NCBI RefSeq assembly: GCF_014651515.1
Contig: NZ_BMXA01000001.1
Location: forward strand, 372,001 to 436,000
Direction: 5' to 3'
Length of the DNA stretch: 64,000 nucleotides
Origin: Arenicella chitinivorans
Lineage (GTDB): Bacteria; Pseudomonadota; Gammaproteobacteria; Arenicellales; Arenicellaceae
Under the pieces are notes generated by a model. It was not told the DNA's origin. It saw only the letters and a list, made by a program, of their open reading frames with translations, and did not search any database. Each line of letters starts with the position of its first letter. Position 1 is the stretch's first letter. Of the stretch, positions 2,462 through 32,436 are shown piece after piece. The translations under genes and the position numbers were made by a program.

Positions 2462-3420
2462 TGCGGTATGTAGATTGTTTTAATGGCGATGCCGATGGCA
2501 TTTGTGCGTTGACGCAGTTGCGTCTGCATCAACCAGTCGAGTCAGAACTGGTGACTGGTGTTAAACGTGACATTAAACTATTGGAGCGGATCAAGGTTCA
2601 ACAAGGGGATTTAGTTACCGTGTTGGATATCTCCTTGGATAAAAACCGGTTCGAGCTTGAAAGAGTGCTTGGCTCGGGTGCGACTGTATTTTACTGCGAT
2701 CATCATTTTGCCGGCGAGATACCAGATCACCCAAAGCTCACGACCTTGATTAATACAACGCCCGACGTTTGCACCAGCCTACTGATAAATCAGCAATTGA
2801 AGGGGCGCTACTTGGCCTGGGCTGTGGTGGGCACCTTTGGGGATAACTTACTAAAATCTGCTCGTGGTCTTGCGAAACCCCTGGACCTCACCGATGCTCA
2901 GCTAAACGAGCTGGAGTTGCTGGGTATCTACCTGAATTACAATGGGTACGGTGCCGGGCTTGAGGATTTGTATTTTGATCCAGCAGTTTTGGCTCAGCGT
3001 ACCATGCAGTTCGCCTCGCCGTTTGAGTTTATGCTGGAGGATCCTGAGACCTTTGGTACCCTGAAGCACGGGTACCACTCCGACATGAATCACGCTGCTG
3101 CGATGACGCCGCATCACCGGTCAGCCGAGGCAGAAATTTATATCTTGCCAAACGAAGCTTGGGCAAGGCGCGTTAGTGGCGTATTCGGGAATGACCTGGC
3201 CAATCGAGCGCCAGATCGTGCACATGCCGTGTTGACTGAACGCAGTGATGGACAGTTTTTAGTCAGTGTGCGCGCGCCATTAAATAACAAGCAACACGCG
3301 GACGTTGTCTGCCGTCAGTTTGCCACAGGCGGTGGACGTGCCGCGGCGGCGGGCATTAACCAATTGCCGGCGTCTGAACTTACTCAGTTTATCTCGGTGC
3401 TGTGTGAAACCTATCGATAA
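2461..3420 (+). CDS. DHH-family phosphoesterase
   Basis: A 319-residue DHH superfamily protein. Visible motifs are FNGDADGICAL at the N-terminus (metal-binding Asp pair), a DISLDKN block, the signature FYCDHHF, and a C-terminal GGGRAAAAG block like the DHHA1 substrate-binding motif. Family members cleave phosphodiesters in small nucleotides or short oligonucleotides, or act on polyphosphate; the substrate here is unknown. The start is taken as ATG 2461, overlapping the previous stop by one base. An upstream extension would begin inside the ArsC-like gene and lacks homology to the family start. Confidence 0.85.
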   Translation: MRYVDCFNGDADGICALTQLRLHQPVESELVTGVKRDIKLLERIKVQQGDLVTVLDISLDKNRFELERVLGSGATVFYCDHHFAGEIPDHPKLTTLINTTPDVCTSLLINQQLKGRYLAWAVVGTFGDNLLKSARGLAKPLDLTDAQLNELELLGIYLNYNGYGAGLEDLYFDPAVLAQRTMQFASPFEFMLEDPETFGTLKHGYHSDMNHAAAMTPHHRSAEAEIYILPNEAWARRVSGVFGNDLANRAPDRAHAVLTERSDGQFLVSVRAPLNNKQHADVVCRQFATGGGRAAAAGINQLPASELTQFISVLCETYR

Positions 3421-3943
3421 GCAATCTGCCGAGCCGGAAGCTGATACCCGCGACAAAGTCGTGCGCATCGTCGAGCGGATTGGCAGCGTGGCAGAGGGCC
3501 TGTTGCGAAAGGTTAGCTGGTTTGTCGGCTTTGGTGTGCTTGCCTCTGTGTACCTTGCCTGGCTGGTGTATTCGCCAGAGTCTGCTTGGTGGTGGAATGC
3601 TATTAAATGCGTGATTGTGTGTTTGCCAGCATTACTGTGGAGTTTTATCTGGTTTGTGTTATCACAACTCAGTGAAGCACCGACGCAGGTTGCCGGCTTG
3701 ATGGATGGTGACAATCAATTGGTCGGTCATCTCAAAGCGATGCACCTAGGCGAGAGAAAAGGTGTGCGCGGGCTTTTCAGCACCTTAAATGCGGTGCGCA
3801 ATGAGGAGGCGTTTAGTGCCGTGTTCGACACGATCGGTGGCGTGACCTTGCTGGCTAATCCGTTATTCGCGTTTATTGCCTTGGTCACCGGGTTACTGTT
3901 GCTTTTATTGGTGTTGATCGCCGCCTTATTTTTGGTGTTCTGA
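3404..3943 (+). CDS. Hypothetical membrane protein
   Basis: About 179 residues, not recognised as a known family. GTG 3404 is proposed as the start because it lies just inside the end of the DHH gene, giving a 17-base overlap. The longer reading frame upstream would translate the DHH gene out of frame. There are three hydrophobic stretches: residues about 38-58, 66-88 and a very long Leu/Val-rich C-terminal helix. It sits in a tight run of genes from the ArsC-like gene to rimI, so it is probably co-transcribed. Confidence 0.7.
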   Translation: MKPIDKQSAEPEADTRDKVVRIVERIGSVAEGLLRKVSWFVGFGVLASVYLAWLVYSPESAWWWNAIKCVIVCLPALLWSFIWFVLSQLSEAPTQVAGLMDGDNQLVGHLKAMHLGERKGVRGLFSTLNAVRNEEAFSAVFDTIGGVTLLANPLFAFIALVTGLLLLLLVLIAALFLVF

Positions 3944-3944
3944 C

Positions 3945-4838
3945 ATGACGTCCGAGCTGCTCAATCAACTGCATGTGCAAGCGTGGCGCCTACGTGCTAA
4001 GCCAGAGATTCAGGTTGTCTCTGCACCGCCCGAAACCGTTGAGCCTGAAGGCATACCAGTTCCTAGCACGGAAACACAAGCTGTCCAGGAGGTGCCCGCA
4101 CTGGACGATGATGCGCAGGTTGGAGCCATTGAATCTGAGCCGTTTGTGGCAGCGCTGGGGGGGCACCAGGTTCCGGTTTTGGCTCCGGTTATGGTGGCTT
4201 CGGAGCCAGCGTTAACGGCACCTGAAATGCGCGAAGAGCCGGAACATGTCATTCCCGATATCTCAGAACCGTTGGTCTCCGATCCGGTTGCGGTCGCAGA
4301 CTGGACCACATTGCAGTCCATGATCAATACCGGGCTCCTATGCCCGAGTTGTAATACCAATAACGCTGTAATGGGCGACGGCAGTCAGCAAGCACAGTGG
4401 CTATTTGTATTTGACTCACCAACCACGACGGATCTGCGAGAAGGCCAGATTTGTAATGGTCGGGCTGGGGGCTTATATGACGCACTGTTGTCCGCTTGTG
4501 GGATGGCGCGGACCAGCGTGTACACGACCACGGTGTTCAAATGCGCACCGACGGACGATCTAAGTCTGTCGCCAGCATGCCATGCCATATTACGTAGACA
4601 GATTGAGTTGATTGCGCCGAAGGTGGTGGTGGCATTCGGTGAGTTTGCTGCACAGTCGGTGCTCAAGGCCAACGAACCCTTGGATGCTCTTCGTAAACAG
4701 ACTCAGACTTGCTTCTCGACCGGGGTTCGAGTGGTACCGACGTACAGCCCATTGCAGATGCTGGAGCACAATGAATTGAAAGCTGAGGTGTGGCGCGATT
4801 TGTCGACAGCGTTACGCTGGTATCGTCAGCTTCCGTAA
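3945..4838 (+). CDS. UDG-fold protein with HolD-like N-terminus (candidate Pol III psi)
   Basis: 297 residues in three parts. Residues 1-20 contain LLNQLHVQAWRLR, which resembles the clamp-loader-binding N-terminus of E. coli psi as I recall it (QLQQLGITQWSLR). Residues about 21-115 are an acidic, Pro/Val/Glu-rich linker. Residues about 120-297 are a family 4-like uracil-DNA-glycosylase fold with the four expected Fe-S cysteines C133, C136, C200 and C212. The catalytic blocks are degenerate: the GEAPG-type motif reads VFDSPTTTD, and the C-terminal His motif reads TYSPLQML without His, so glycosylase activity is unlikely. The next gene is rimI, the same neighbour as holD in E. coli. I infer a replication role as psi. 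Confidence 0.7.
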   Translation: MTSELLNQLHVQAWRLRAKPEIQVVSAPPETVEPEGIPVPSTETQAVQEVPALDDDAQVGAIESEPFVAALGGHQVPVLAPVMVASEPALTAPEMREEPEHVIPDISEPLVSDPVAVADWTTLQSMINTGLLCPSCNTNNAVMGDGSQQAQWLFVFDSPTTTDLREGQICNGRAGGLYDALLSACGMARTSVYTTTVFKCAPTDDLSLSPACHAILRRQIELIAPKVVVAFGEFAAQSVLKANEPLDALRKQTQTCFSTGVRVVPTYSPLQMLEHNELKAEVWRDLSTALRWYRQLP

Positions 4839-4847
4839 TTGGTCGGC

Positions 4848-5333
4848 ATGTCTTCCGCGTTACAGCAGATGATTCTGGATCAGGGCATCGAGCTGCGCGA
4901 TATGCAGGATGCTGACCTGGCTGCCGTGTTACAGATTGAGCAAGCTGCGCAAATGAGTCCCTGGGGTCGTCTGTCTTTTGAGGAAGCCCTCACCAGTGAC
5001 TACGTGTGCCGGGTGCTGTGCTGCCAACGGCAGGTGTTGGCTTATCATATTTGCAGCAGCGTGCTAGATGAAGTGCAGATTCTCAATGTCGTTGTCGCGC
5101 CGACGGCGCAAGGTGTTGGTTTGGGGCACCGGCTATTACACGATGTACTCGAGCTGGCTGCTGCGAGGGCGTGCAACACGCTCTTTCTCGAGGTGCGACT
5201 CAGTAATCAAAAGGCACAGAATCTATATCGGCAGTGGCAATTCGAGCAGATCGCGGTGCGCAAACACTATTACTCGACGCCGCACGGTGATCGAGAGGAT
5301 GCGCTGATTTTCGTTCGGCGGATCGTCGATTAA
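4848..5333 (+). CDS. rimI: Ribosomal protein S18 alanine N-acetyltransferase
   Basis: A 161-residue GNAT acetyltransferase matching RimI, which acetylates the N-terminus of ribosomal protein S18. Family features include IEQAAQMSPWGRLSFEEAL near the N-terminus, the acetyl-CoA loop VVAPTAQGVGLGHRLL, FLEVRLSNQKAQNLYRQWQF and the terminal YYSTPHGDREDALIF. The start could also be TTG 4839, directly after the previous stop; ATG 4848 is preferred. It ends convergently with mltD, and the two stop codons share the TTAA at 5330-5333. Confidence 0.9.
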   Translation: MSSALQQMILDQGIELRDMQDADLAAVLQIEQAAQMSPWGRLSFEEALTSDYVCRVLCCQRQVLAYHICSSVLDEVQILNVVVAPTAQGVGLGHRLLHDVLELAAARACNTLFLEVRLSNQKAQNLYRQWQFEQIAVRKHYYSTPHGDREDALIFVRRIVD

Positions 5334-30472: not shown

Positions 30473-30483
30473 TTTTGTAGCGT

Positions 30484-32436
30484 ATGGACTCCGACAGTAT
30501 TGCGCATATTCTCGGAGAAGCGGGCGCGTTTTCTCGCAGCGTCGCTAACTTTCAGTCACGCCCATCGCAGGTGGAAATGGCCGAGGCCATTGAACACGTA
30601 ATTGAAAACAAACAGACCTTGTTGGCGGAGTCTGGCACTGGTACCGGTAAAACATTTGCTTACCTAGTGCCGGCTTTGTTGTCGGGCAAGAAGACCTTGT
30701 TGTCGACTGGGACCAAACATCTGCAGGAGCAACTATTCCACCGCGACATCCCGCTCGTTATCAAAACTTTGGCTTTGCACGTCAAAGTGTCGCTCCTCAA
30801 AGGTCGCAGCAACTACCTGTGTCTACACCGTCTATCGTTGACTCGTGGTGGCCCTCGTCGTCTGGATAAAGTCCAAGCGGCCGAACTCGAAGCGATCTAT
30901 CAGTGGGGCAGTCGATCCAAGGATGGCGACGTTGGCAACTTAACCGAGGTGCCTGAGGACTCGCGTATTTGGCCGCAGGTCACCTCAACCGTCGACAATT
31001 GTATCGGTCAGGAATGTAGTTATTTCGAAGATTGTTTTGTCAACAAAGCCCGCAAGGCTGCCTTGACCAGTGACATTGTGGTCGTCAATCATCACTTATT
31101 CTTTGCTGATAAAGCACTCAAAAACGATGGGTTCGGTGCTCTGCTACCTGAAGTGGATACGGTGATATTTGATGAAGCGCATCAAATTCCCGATATCGCT
31201 TCCAATTTTCTCGGCAGTAGTTTCAGTTCTTGGCAAATCATGGAATTGGCCAATGACACTCGAGCCGCCGAGTTAAGGGAGAAGAGTCTAATTCGATCTT
31301 TAATTCCCTGTGCCGATGAGTTAGATAAATTGACCGCTGATTATCGGCTAGCGCTAGGGTTAAACGAGCGGCGTGTCGCGTGGATCGATTTGTTGGATGA
31401 GATTCCAAACCTGCCCAAGAAACTCGAAACGTTGGCGGATAAGCTGTCTGAGTTTCGTGATGTGCTGGAGGAGGCCTCCATGGCTGGTGAAGCGCTCACC
31501 CGCTGCTACGAGCGAGCCAGTGAGCTGGCCGAGGCGTGTCAGGTCTTAGCGCAGGAGAGCGACAGCGATGAAACTGTGCGTTGGGTTGAAATCGCGCGCC
31601 GTACATTCAGGATCCATGAAACACCGTTAAATATTGGCAGCGAACTAGCTCGATATTTTGGGAATCAGCAGCAAGCGCGGGTTTTTACCTCTGCAACATT
31701 GTCCGTGGATGGTAATTTCACACACTTTAAGCAATTGACGGGTTTGCCTGGCGAGGCTGAGGATCGAACTTGGGGCAGCCCGTTCGACTATTTCAATCAA
31801 GCCGTGTTGTATGTGCCTGAAGGTATGCCTGCGCCGAAAGATGACACGTTTGCCGAAGTGCTTTTTACGCGTGCGCTGCCAATTCTTGAGGCCAGCCAAG
31901 GTGCGGCGTTCGTGTTATTCACCAGTTTTAAAATCATGCAAGGTTTCGCTGAAATGCTCGAAGACCGGGGCTTCAATGTCTTAGTTCAGGGTGATACAAA
32001 TAAACGTGAATTACTGCGAGAGTTCGTTGCCAAGCCCAGATCCGTATTGCTCGGTACCATGAGCTTTTGGGAAGGTGTGGATGTGCCGGGTCATGCCCTG
32101 CGTTGCGTTATTATCGATAAATTACCCTTCGAGTCGCCGTTTGATCCGGTTATTAAAGCGCGTCTTAAAGCCATGCAGGACGATGGTGGTAACCCATTTA
32201 TGAATTACCAGGTGCCGCGGGCTGTTATTACCTTGCGCCAAGGTGCAGGTCGTTTGATTCGTAGTAGTCACGACAAGGGCGTGCTGGTGATCTGTGATCC
32301 CCGATTGCGAACCACCAACTACGGTCGATTGTTCCTAAACAGTTTGCCGCGTATGCGGCGCACCAACAATGAAGCAAAAGTGGCGCAGTTTTTAGTCCGC
32401 CTAGCGGTCGAATCCGAGGAAACCCCCGATGCCTGA
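30484..32436 (+). CDS. yoaA: ATP-dependent DNA helicase YoaA (DinG/XPD family)
   Basis: 650 residues. Superfamily 2 Fe-S helicase: QSRPSQVEMA (Q-type motif), Walker A SGTGTGKTFAY, four Fe-S cysteines (NYLCLHR, NCIGQECSYFEDCF), DEAH box VIFDEAH and the C-terminal RQGAGRLIRSSHDKG. E. coli YoaA works in damage repair with the clamp-loader chi subunit, and it also lies next to tsaB, as here. It overlaps tsaB by 8 bases. Confidence 0.92.
   Translation: MDSDSIAHILGEAGAFSRSVANFQSRPSQVEMAEAIEHVIENKQTLLAESGTGTGKTFAYLVPALLSGKKTLLSTGTKHLQEQLFHRDIPLVIKTLALHVKVSLLKGRSNYLCLHRLSLTRGGPRRLDKVQAAELEAIYQWGSRSKDGDVGNLTEVPEDSRIWPQVTSTVDNCIGQECSYFEDCFVNKARKAALTSDIVVVNHHLFFADKALKNDGFGALLPEVDTVIFDEAHQIPDIASNFLGSSFSSWQIMELANDTRAAELREKSLIRSLIPCADELDKLTADYRLALGLNERRVAWIDLLDEIPNLPKKLETLADKLSEFRDVLEEASMAGEALTRCYERASELAEACQVLAQESDSDETVRWVEIARRTFRIHETPLNIGSELARYFGNQQQARVFTSATLSVDGNFTHFKQLTGLPGEAEDRTWGSPFDYFNQAVLYVPEGMPAPKDDTFAEVLFTRALPILEASQGAAFVLFTSFKIMQGFAEMLEDRGFNVLVQGDTNKRELLREFVAKPRSVLLGTMSFWEGVDVPGHALRCVIIDKLPFESPFDPVIKARLKAMQDDGGNPFMNYQVPRAVITLRQGAGRLIRSSHDKGVLVICDPRLRTTNYGRLFLNSLPRMRRTNNEAKVAQFLVRLAVESEETPDA

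Follow-up and report, generated by a model that had tools for sequence, protein, structure and literature searches.

A candidate cryptic psi subunit built on an Fe-S uracil-DNA glycosylase fold in Arenicella chitinivorans

RESULTS

A candidate psi gene lies directly before rimI

We analyzed a 64,000-nucleotide stretch of the Arenicella chitinivorans genome (the window) and describe here one open reading frame within it as a candidate holD gene, which would encode the clamp-loader subunit psi (Table 1). Its ATG start lies one base past the stop of the preceding frame, and rimI follows immediately. The first-pass annotation had proposed that the protein joins a HolD-like N-terminal peptide, a long acidic linker, and a uracil-DNA glycosylase (UDG) domain of the family-4 type with four Fe-S cysteines, and that the gene is placed before rimI as holD is in E. 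coli. Both points were confirmed: the architecture by the peptide motif, residue composition, PF03167, and alignments, and the position by a TIGR01575 score above the cut-off for rimI and by the order holD-rimI that we found in E. coli MG1655. Nine same-genus relatives that we fetched have the same architecture, with rimI again downstream. The preceding frame (3305-3943, with its stop one base before the candidate psi start) has no Pfam match and a weak NCBIfam match, and how far its N-terminus extends is uncertain.

The linker contains 20 Asp or Glu residues and 16 prolines but a single Lys or Arg. An AlphaFold2 model of the protein had a mean pLDDT of 76, with a mostly confident core, a helix at residues 3 to 8, and a disordered linker of low to middling confidence overall, in which pLDDT was below 50 at residues 44 to 47 and 52 to 75.

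Table 1. Features of the candidate psi gene and its downstream neighbor (positions in the window)
Feature	Position	Strand	Basis or remark
Candidate holD/psi gene (P0001)	3945..4838	+	297 aa; ORF and translation
HolD-like clamp-loader-binding peptide (putative), residues 3-19 (SELLNQLHVQAWRLRAK)	3951..4001	+	Strict motif, profile, model helix
Acidic Pro-rich linker, residues 20-119, largely disordered	4002..4301	+	Composition, pLDDT
Family-4-like UDG core, residues 120-297	4302..4835	+	PF03167, TIGR00758, Foldseek
C133-x2-C136, first two predicted 4Fe-4S ligands	4341..4352	+	Invariant in alignment A1
Degenerate motif 1, FDSPT for GEAPG	4410..4424	+	Alignments
T196 for motif Asn (IANxLKC)	4530..4532	+	Alignments
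C200, third predicted Fe-S ligand	4542..4544	+	Alignments
C212, fourth predicted Fe-S ligand	4578..4580	+	Alignments
S268 for motif His (YHPA)	4746..4748	+	Alignments
rimI, immediately downstream (exact start uncertain)	4839..5333	+	TIGR01575, 112.8 bits (cut-off, 86.4)

The candidate thus shares the gene order of holD. Directly downstream of the corresponding gene, rimI was found in all 10 loci of the genus, 8 of 20 loci of the order (2 with short flanks), 72 of 90 loci of a panel from the class, and 29 of 31 loci of canonical psi. In a further set of 80 loci, the named scan, it was downstream in 41 and upstream in 10. The loci with rimI upstream are L227, L242, L244, L250, L254, L261, L262, L265, L268, and L274; several are betaproteobacterial by title, and several have a tether that is one residue longer.

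The core has a UDG fold with altered catalytic motifs

PF03167 matched the protein at 54.2 bits (gathering cut-off, 24.3), which places it in the UDG superfamily. The profile of UDG family 4 (TIGR00758) gave 97.9 bits, under its cut-off of 125.3. UdgX (TIGR03914) is likewise a member of the superfamily and appears among the Foldseek matches of the model, but its profile gave 55.8 bits, far under the cut-off of 190, and an identity as UdgX was rejected. The best PDB matches in Foldseek were family-4 UDGs, with 1l9g at the top (E = 2e-11, probability 1.00), and the nearest solved relatives of the core are the UDGs of T. maritima and T. thermophilus. There was no psi chain among the Foldseek matches listed (best 50 of 1,041, E up to 10). 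Since PF03603 (DNA_III_psi) also had no match in the protein at E values up to 1, we do not file the candidate under PF03603; its kinship with psi runs through a wider family.

The fold and four cysteines (C133, C136, C200, and C212, predicted to be the 4Fe-4S ligands) are those of family-4 Fe-S UDGs (1l9g, 1vk2, 1ui0). At the positions of C133 and C136, all genus, order, and class-panel loci have Cys. The CxxC pair of the candidate is displaced by three columns in alignment A3, probably because the loop after the pair is shorter. Unlike family-4 UDGs, the candidate has an added tether and a long linker, and its motifs are altered: GEAPG is FDSPT, IANxLKC is TTTVFKC, and YHPA is YSPL, with D, T, and S in place of the residues that we take, from general knowledge of the family, to be the catalytic E, N, and H. 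All 10 genus members differ at the Asn and His sites, and all 10 have Asp at the Glu site. Because of this conserved Asp, the proposed loss of the catalytic motifs is certain only for the Asn, the His, and an aromatic F-to-C change; with Glu replaced by Asp throughout the genus, the protein may keep residual activity.

The N-terminal peptide is shared with UDGs that have intact motifs

We scanned the entire open frame that precedes the core for the strict motif L..[MLIFV][GDNASH][IVLFM]..[WYF]. For the relatives, most of which come from unnamed or metagenome-assembled genomes, a script chose a start codon that precedes the peptide, and expected counts were taken from shuffled N-terminal regions. 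The motif was found in 10 of 10 genus proteins versus 0.08 expected, this sample being the window protein and 9 of 10 relatives. The relative left out, from G003, the eleventh genome of the genus, matched weakly. Among the 20 best-scoring matches outside the genus, which make up the order sample, 19 had the motif (0.05 expected), and in these relatives the UDG that follows the peptide has intact motifs. The class panel consists of 90 loci (L048-L137), the 10 best matches and 80 chosen among the matches listed and spread over families. Here the motif was present in 68 of the 71 loci that were picked because their match covered the peptide (0.29 expected) and in 16 of the 19 that were picked mostly because the match did not cover it (0.08 expected). 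Thus, 84 of 90 are UDGs with intact motifs and the peptide, in a list that favors the peptide because the A1 search profile includes it. A set of 30 loci picked on purpose for low scores or a chi-negative genome (L138-L167; L166 has no core match) gave 21 of 29 versus 0.18 expected. The named scan (L197-L276, the best 80 of at least 594) gave 56 of 80 versus 0.43 expected; it is not summed with the class panel because the genomes overlap. The motif was found in none of the 25 top-scoring loci that represent other classes of the phylum, many of which belong to one family (f199), and in none of the 8 loci from other phyla in the named scan. Several of the misses are variants of the motif, such as the one-residue-longer betaproteobacterial form ILKELNLLPVWRLK (Nitrosomonas, L250).

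Alignment A1 (30 proteins) shows no variation at the four cysteines and almost none at L6, W14, and R17 of the peptide. The frequencies of the peptide L, M, G, I, and W agree among 31 canonical psi proteins, 10 genus proteins, and 110 proteins with intact motifs; the Arg is found in 16 of 31, 9 of 10, and 99 of 110, respectively. We then built a 22-column profile from 32 peptides (7 from the genus and 25 from UDGs with intact motifs), with no known psi among them, and searched it against 177,635 PDB sequences. Ranked first to fourth were 3gli_O (E = 0.013), 9oyg_J, 3sxu_B, and 8giy_F, which are the four psi entries with an N-terminus, and the next match had E = 0.59. The leading match, 3gli_O, is the peptide of E. 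coli psi bound in the clamp loader; its E value exceeds the customary threshold, and it is the ranking that serves as evidence. The N-terminus of E. coli psi penetrates the collar of tau/gamma (PMC11253446). By its sequence, the candidate begins with a peptide of this psi type.

These results bear on whether the protein is an active family-4 UDG with unusual motifs, the psi-like peptide being there by chance. Such a reading would fit the PF03167 score, well over its cut-off, and the publication of P. aeruginosa PA4679 as a putative UDG from modeling (PMC8516228). However, the counts against shuffled sequences led us to reject a chance peptide, the motif was absent from the 25 loci of other classes, and the PDB search ranked psi peptides first. 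The Asn and His positions are changed throughout the genus, and an Ung is encoded elsewhere in the genome. With TIGR00758 also under its cut-off, we rejected an active family-4 UDG as our principal interpretation and give it almost no weight.

Canonical psi and UDG cores are similar without the tether

We compared the families by hhalign with the peptide removed. The profile of 31 canonical psi proteins matched the genus with a probability of 63.6%, independently degenerate proteins with 81.9%, UDGs of other phyla with 64.9%, and the active panel with 22.1%; the RimI control reached 0.2%, and none of 120 column permutations reached any of the four real scores. When nine non-UDG PF03603 loci were added to the 31, the match to other-phylum UDGs rose to 95.5% (E = 1.4e-8) and that to the active panel to 95.7%, versus 0.07% for the RimI control. 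None of 100 permutations reached the real result for other-phylum UDGs, and the best null probability was 1.3%. A variant with six of the nine further PF03603 loci (all also A1 matches) gave 95.4%. The version with all nine loci is the fairer test, and we rely on it. The segments matched between psi and UDG are LL..ML.A.GL...VY and HPA.LL..P..K...W.DL.

Some proteins match both families. A transitional set chosen by both models aligned at 96.8% to canonical psi and at 99.7% to active UDG. In L042 and L043, a PF03603 match above the cut-off and a PF03167 match (E = 0.0053 and 0.0016, respectively) fall in one protein, and L146 has a strong PF03167 match, with PF03603 over its peptide.

A convergent origin would mean that UDG-type proteins and canonical psi gained the peptide independently and that the core likeness is that of a generic alpha/beta fold. 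The weak match of the 31 canonical psi proteins to active UDG cores would agree with this, and the fold of E. coli psi has reportedly been described in print as dinucleotide-binding-like, with UDG unmentioned, which we counted on the same side. However, the tether-free alignments were reached by 0 of 100 to 120 permutations, the transitional proteins match both families, and the rimI locus is common to both. We therefore consider convergence very unlikely.

The tether outlasts catalytic residues in a class-wide series

The catalytic E, N, and H are present in 90 of 90 class-panel loci and 20 of 20 order loci, and the four cysteines in 83 of 90 (the other 7 have CCSC) and 20 of 20. At least two of E, N, and H are changed in 17 proteins (among L006-L035 and L047-L157), namely the ten of the genus together with L147, L150, and L153-L157. 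All 17 have the peptide, and 16 have the four cysteines. A tether that outlasts catalysis is the trace that a second, noncatalytic role would leave. On a quick tree with mostly weak forks, loss of catalysis takes three changes, two of them forced by starred branches; the clearest independent loss is L147, beside its active sister L115 (SH-aLRT 99). In L161, L165, and L167 there are no such cysteines, and the peptide is present. L145 and L148 have intact E, N, and H and no CxxC pair, and because of these two the cluster, as judged from its predicted ligands, can apparently go before catalysis.

The genome has chi and no other recognizable psi

PF03603 had no match in the A. chitinivorans genome, which is 99.6% complete, and a separate recognizable holD elsewhere in the genome was therefore rejected. 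Chi (PF04364) had one match. The candidate is thus the only recognizable psi candidate in a chi-bearing genome. The same genome has a separate family-1 Ung. Two further genes of the UDG superfamily are L004 (G000:C3:280555-280983), with a match to hypoxanthine-DNA glycosylase (TIGR04274) above the cut-off, and L003 (G000:C2:320671-321093), with only a weak match to UDG family 4. The window also contains the yoaA noted in the first-pass annotation: a yoaA-like helicase frame lies at 30481-32433 and is the sole PF13307 match of the genome. For E. coli, competition between YoaA and HolD for chi has been proposed (PMC8378479).

Across 276 genomes of the class, PF03603 was found in 11, the A1 family in 220, and chi in 240. 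None of the 11 PF03603-positive genomes had a separate A1-family match (Fisher P = 2e-8); G093, G146, and G231 match PF03603 and A1 with one protein each. An A1 match was present in 204 of 240 chi-positive genomes and 16 of 36 chi-negative genomes (Fisher P = 4e-7; hand tally), and this association is no clean test because several chi-negative genomes are small and the peptide was kept in 10 of the 11 chi-negative genomes that we looked at. For the latter reason, peptide and chi are not strictly coupled. Chi residues W57 and F64 were conserved in 39 of 39 sequences each in the window's class and in 30 of 30 and 29 of 30, respectively, in other classes; they do not discriminate, since they are conserved in both groups. 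The 39 sequences come from the top-scoring part of the chi matches, and some of their genomes were checked for the peptide; L359 was dropped from an initial 40 because it lay in the wrong place.

An alternative is a repair or uracil-binding protein, such as a degenerate UDG or a sensor resembling UdgX, that is anchored at the clamp loader but makes no contact with chi and does not serve as psi. The retained UDG fold and cysteines, the UdgX chains among the Foldseek matches listed, the Glu-to-Asp change conserved in the genus, and the persistence of the peptide in chi-negative genomes are all in keeping with such a protein. It fits poorly with a genome that has chi and no other recognizable psi, with the low TIGR03914 score, and with canonical psi being homologous over the core, not the peptide alone, and usually in the same locus. 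We judge it unlikely and prefer the reading of the protein as psi.

DISCUSSION

The candidate resembles canonical psi (PF03603; E. coli HolD; 1EM8, 3SXU, 3GLI) in its N-terminal peptide, its holD-rimI locus, and collinear core segments. Unlike the candidate, canonical psi is short and without Fe-S cysteines, and the candidate is without a PF03603 match. A second known system is the psi of P. aeruginosa (HolD, PA4679), whose gene presumably lies before rimI. Published reports describe P. aeruginosa psi as found by copurification with Pol III, with a conditional mutant that grows very poorly without it (PMC8879598), as about twice the length of E. coli psi and missed by homology search (PMC3197488, PMC8879598), and as related to E. 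coli psi in its C-terminal part by HHpred (PMC3197488). The divergent Pseudomonas psi that the first-pass annotation mentioned corresponds to PA4679. In a separate study, PA4679 was modeled from the UDG of T. thermophilus and put forward as a UDG whose uracil-contacting residues are stated to be conserved (PMC8516228), and another study labels it TonB-related (PMC10119676). Like the candidate, then, P. aeruginosa psi is divergent, with a long N-terminus and a C-terminal domain that has been modeled as a UDG. The cryptic psi and the UDG modeling of PA4679 are known separately; in the largely open-access literature searched, partly in excerpt, we found no publication that joins psi and UDG ancestry.

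We conclude, with considerable confidence, that the open reading frame encodes psi, in a late state of a clamp-loader-tethered Fe-S family-4 UDG, of which canonical psi would be a further reduced form. The peptide, the PDB ranking, the tether-free alignment, and the retained tether and cysteines are the reasons why psi looks like a remnant of a tethered Fe-S UDG and the window protein like an intermediate. Because there is a class-wide series in which many members have intact UDG motifs, psi probably arose on a UDG fold. The suggestion of a clamp-loader protein hidden as a DNA glycosylase is supported at the level of sequence, where the peptide, the gene neighborhood, and the profile similarity without the tether each favor psi. 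It had been put forward for one odd protein; psi stays the likeliest identity, and the singularity gives way to the series.

In the mechanism that we propose, the protein would dock in the tau/gamma collar by its N-terminal peptide and gain reach from the disordered acidic linker, and its C-terminal UDG-fold domain would hold chi and, through chi, SSB. The ancestor would have been an Fe-S family-4 UDG with the same peptide tether, usually encoded before rimI, a form that many relatives in the class appear to carry still with intact catalytic motifs. In those relatives, the core may in addition remove uracil close to the fork. The window's genus has apparently abandoned excision, with an Ung encoded in the A. 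chitinivorans genome, and the Fe-S site may have been retained, perhaps for folding. E. coli psi would be a still more reduced version of this protein that lacks the cysteines.

A 2012 review placed chi in alpha-, beta-, and gammaproteobacteria but psi in gammaproteobacteria alone, and left two possibilities, that psi has diverged past recognition or that chi acts alone (PMC3290774). We lean toward a broader proposal, which we hold with moderate confidence: an intact-motif Fe-S UDG, docked on the clamp loader by its N-terminus, would be the "missing" psi of most beta- and gammaproteobacteria, and uracil excision would travel with the replisome. E. coli psi would then be a repeatedly degenerated remnant and the window protein an intermediate without the excision motifs that kept the cluster ligands and the dock. 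This proposal offers an answer for the beta/gamma group, in which psi would be the gene called "uracil-DNA glycosylase family 4," often beside rimI. It would also trace psi back to a repair enzyme that became a structural subunit, a path for which intermediate forms are available, and it suggests that uracil removal is coupled to clamp loading in many bacteria. Clamp-loader binding is worth considering before such genes are named plain UDGs.

Some observations touch on where the tether began. The full motif occurs in a locus titled Rhodospirillales (L241) and the near-motif FYRELGIHSFYRR in one titled Acidobacteriales (L263); both are from metagenome bins. Because of these two loci, the taxonomic border of the peptide may not be sharp, or the bins may be mixed; horizontal transfer, mixed bins, and an older origin of the tether are each possible. 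Among L283-L301, many of which belong to f199 in another class, several UDG frames have YLREIGVxTPVSLF-like N-termini, a partial tether with no Trp, and these are possibly a precursor or a related dock.
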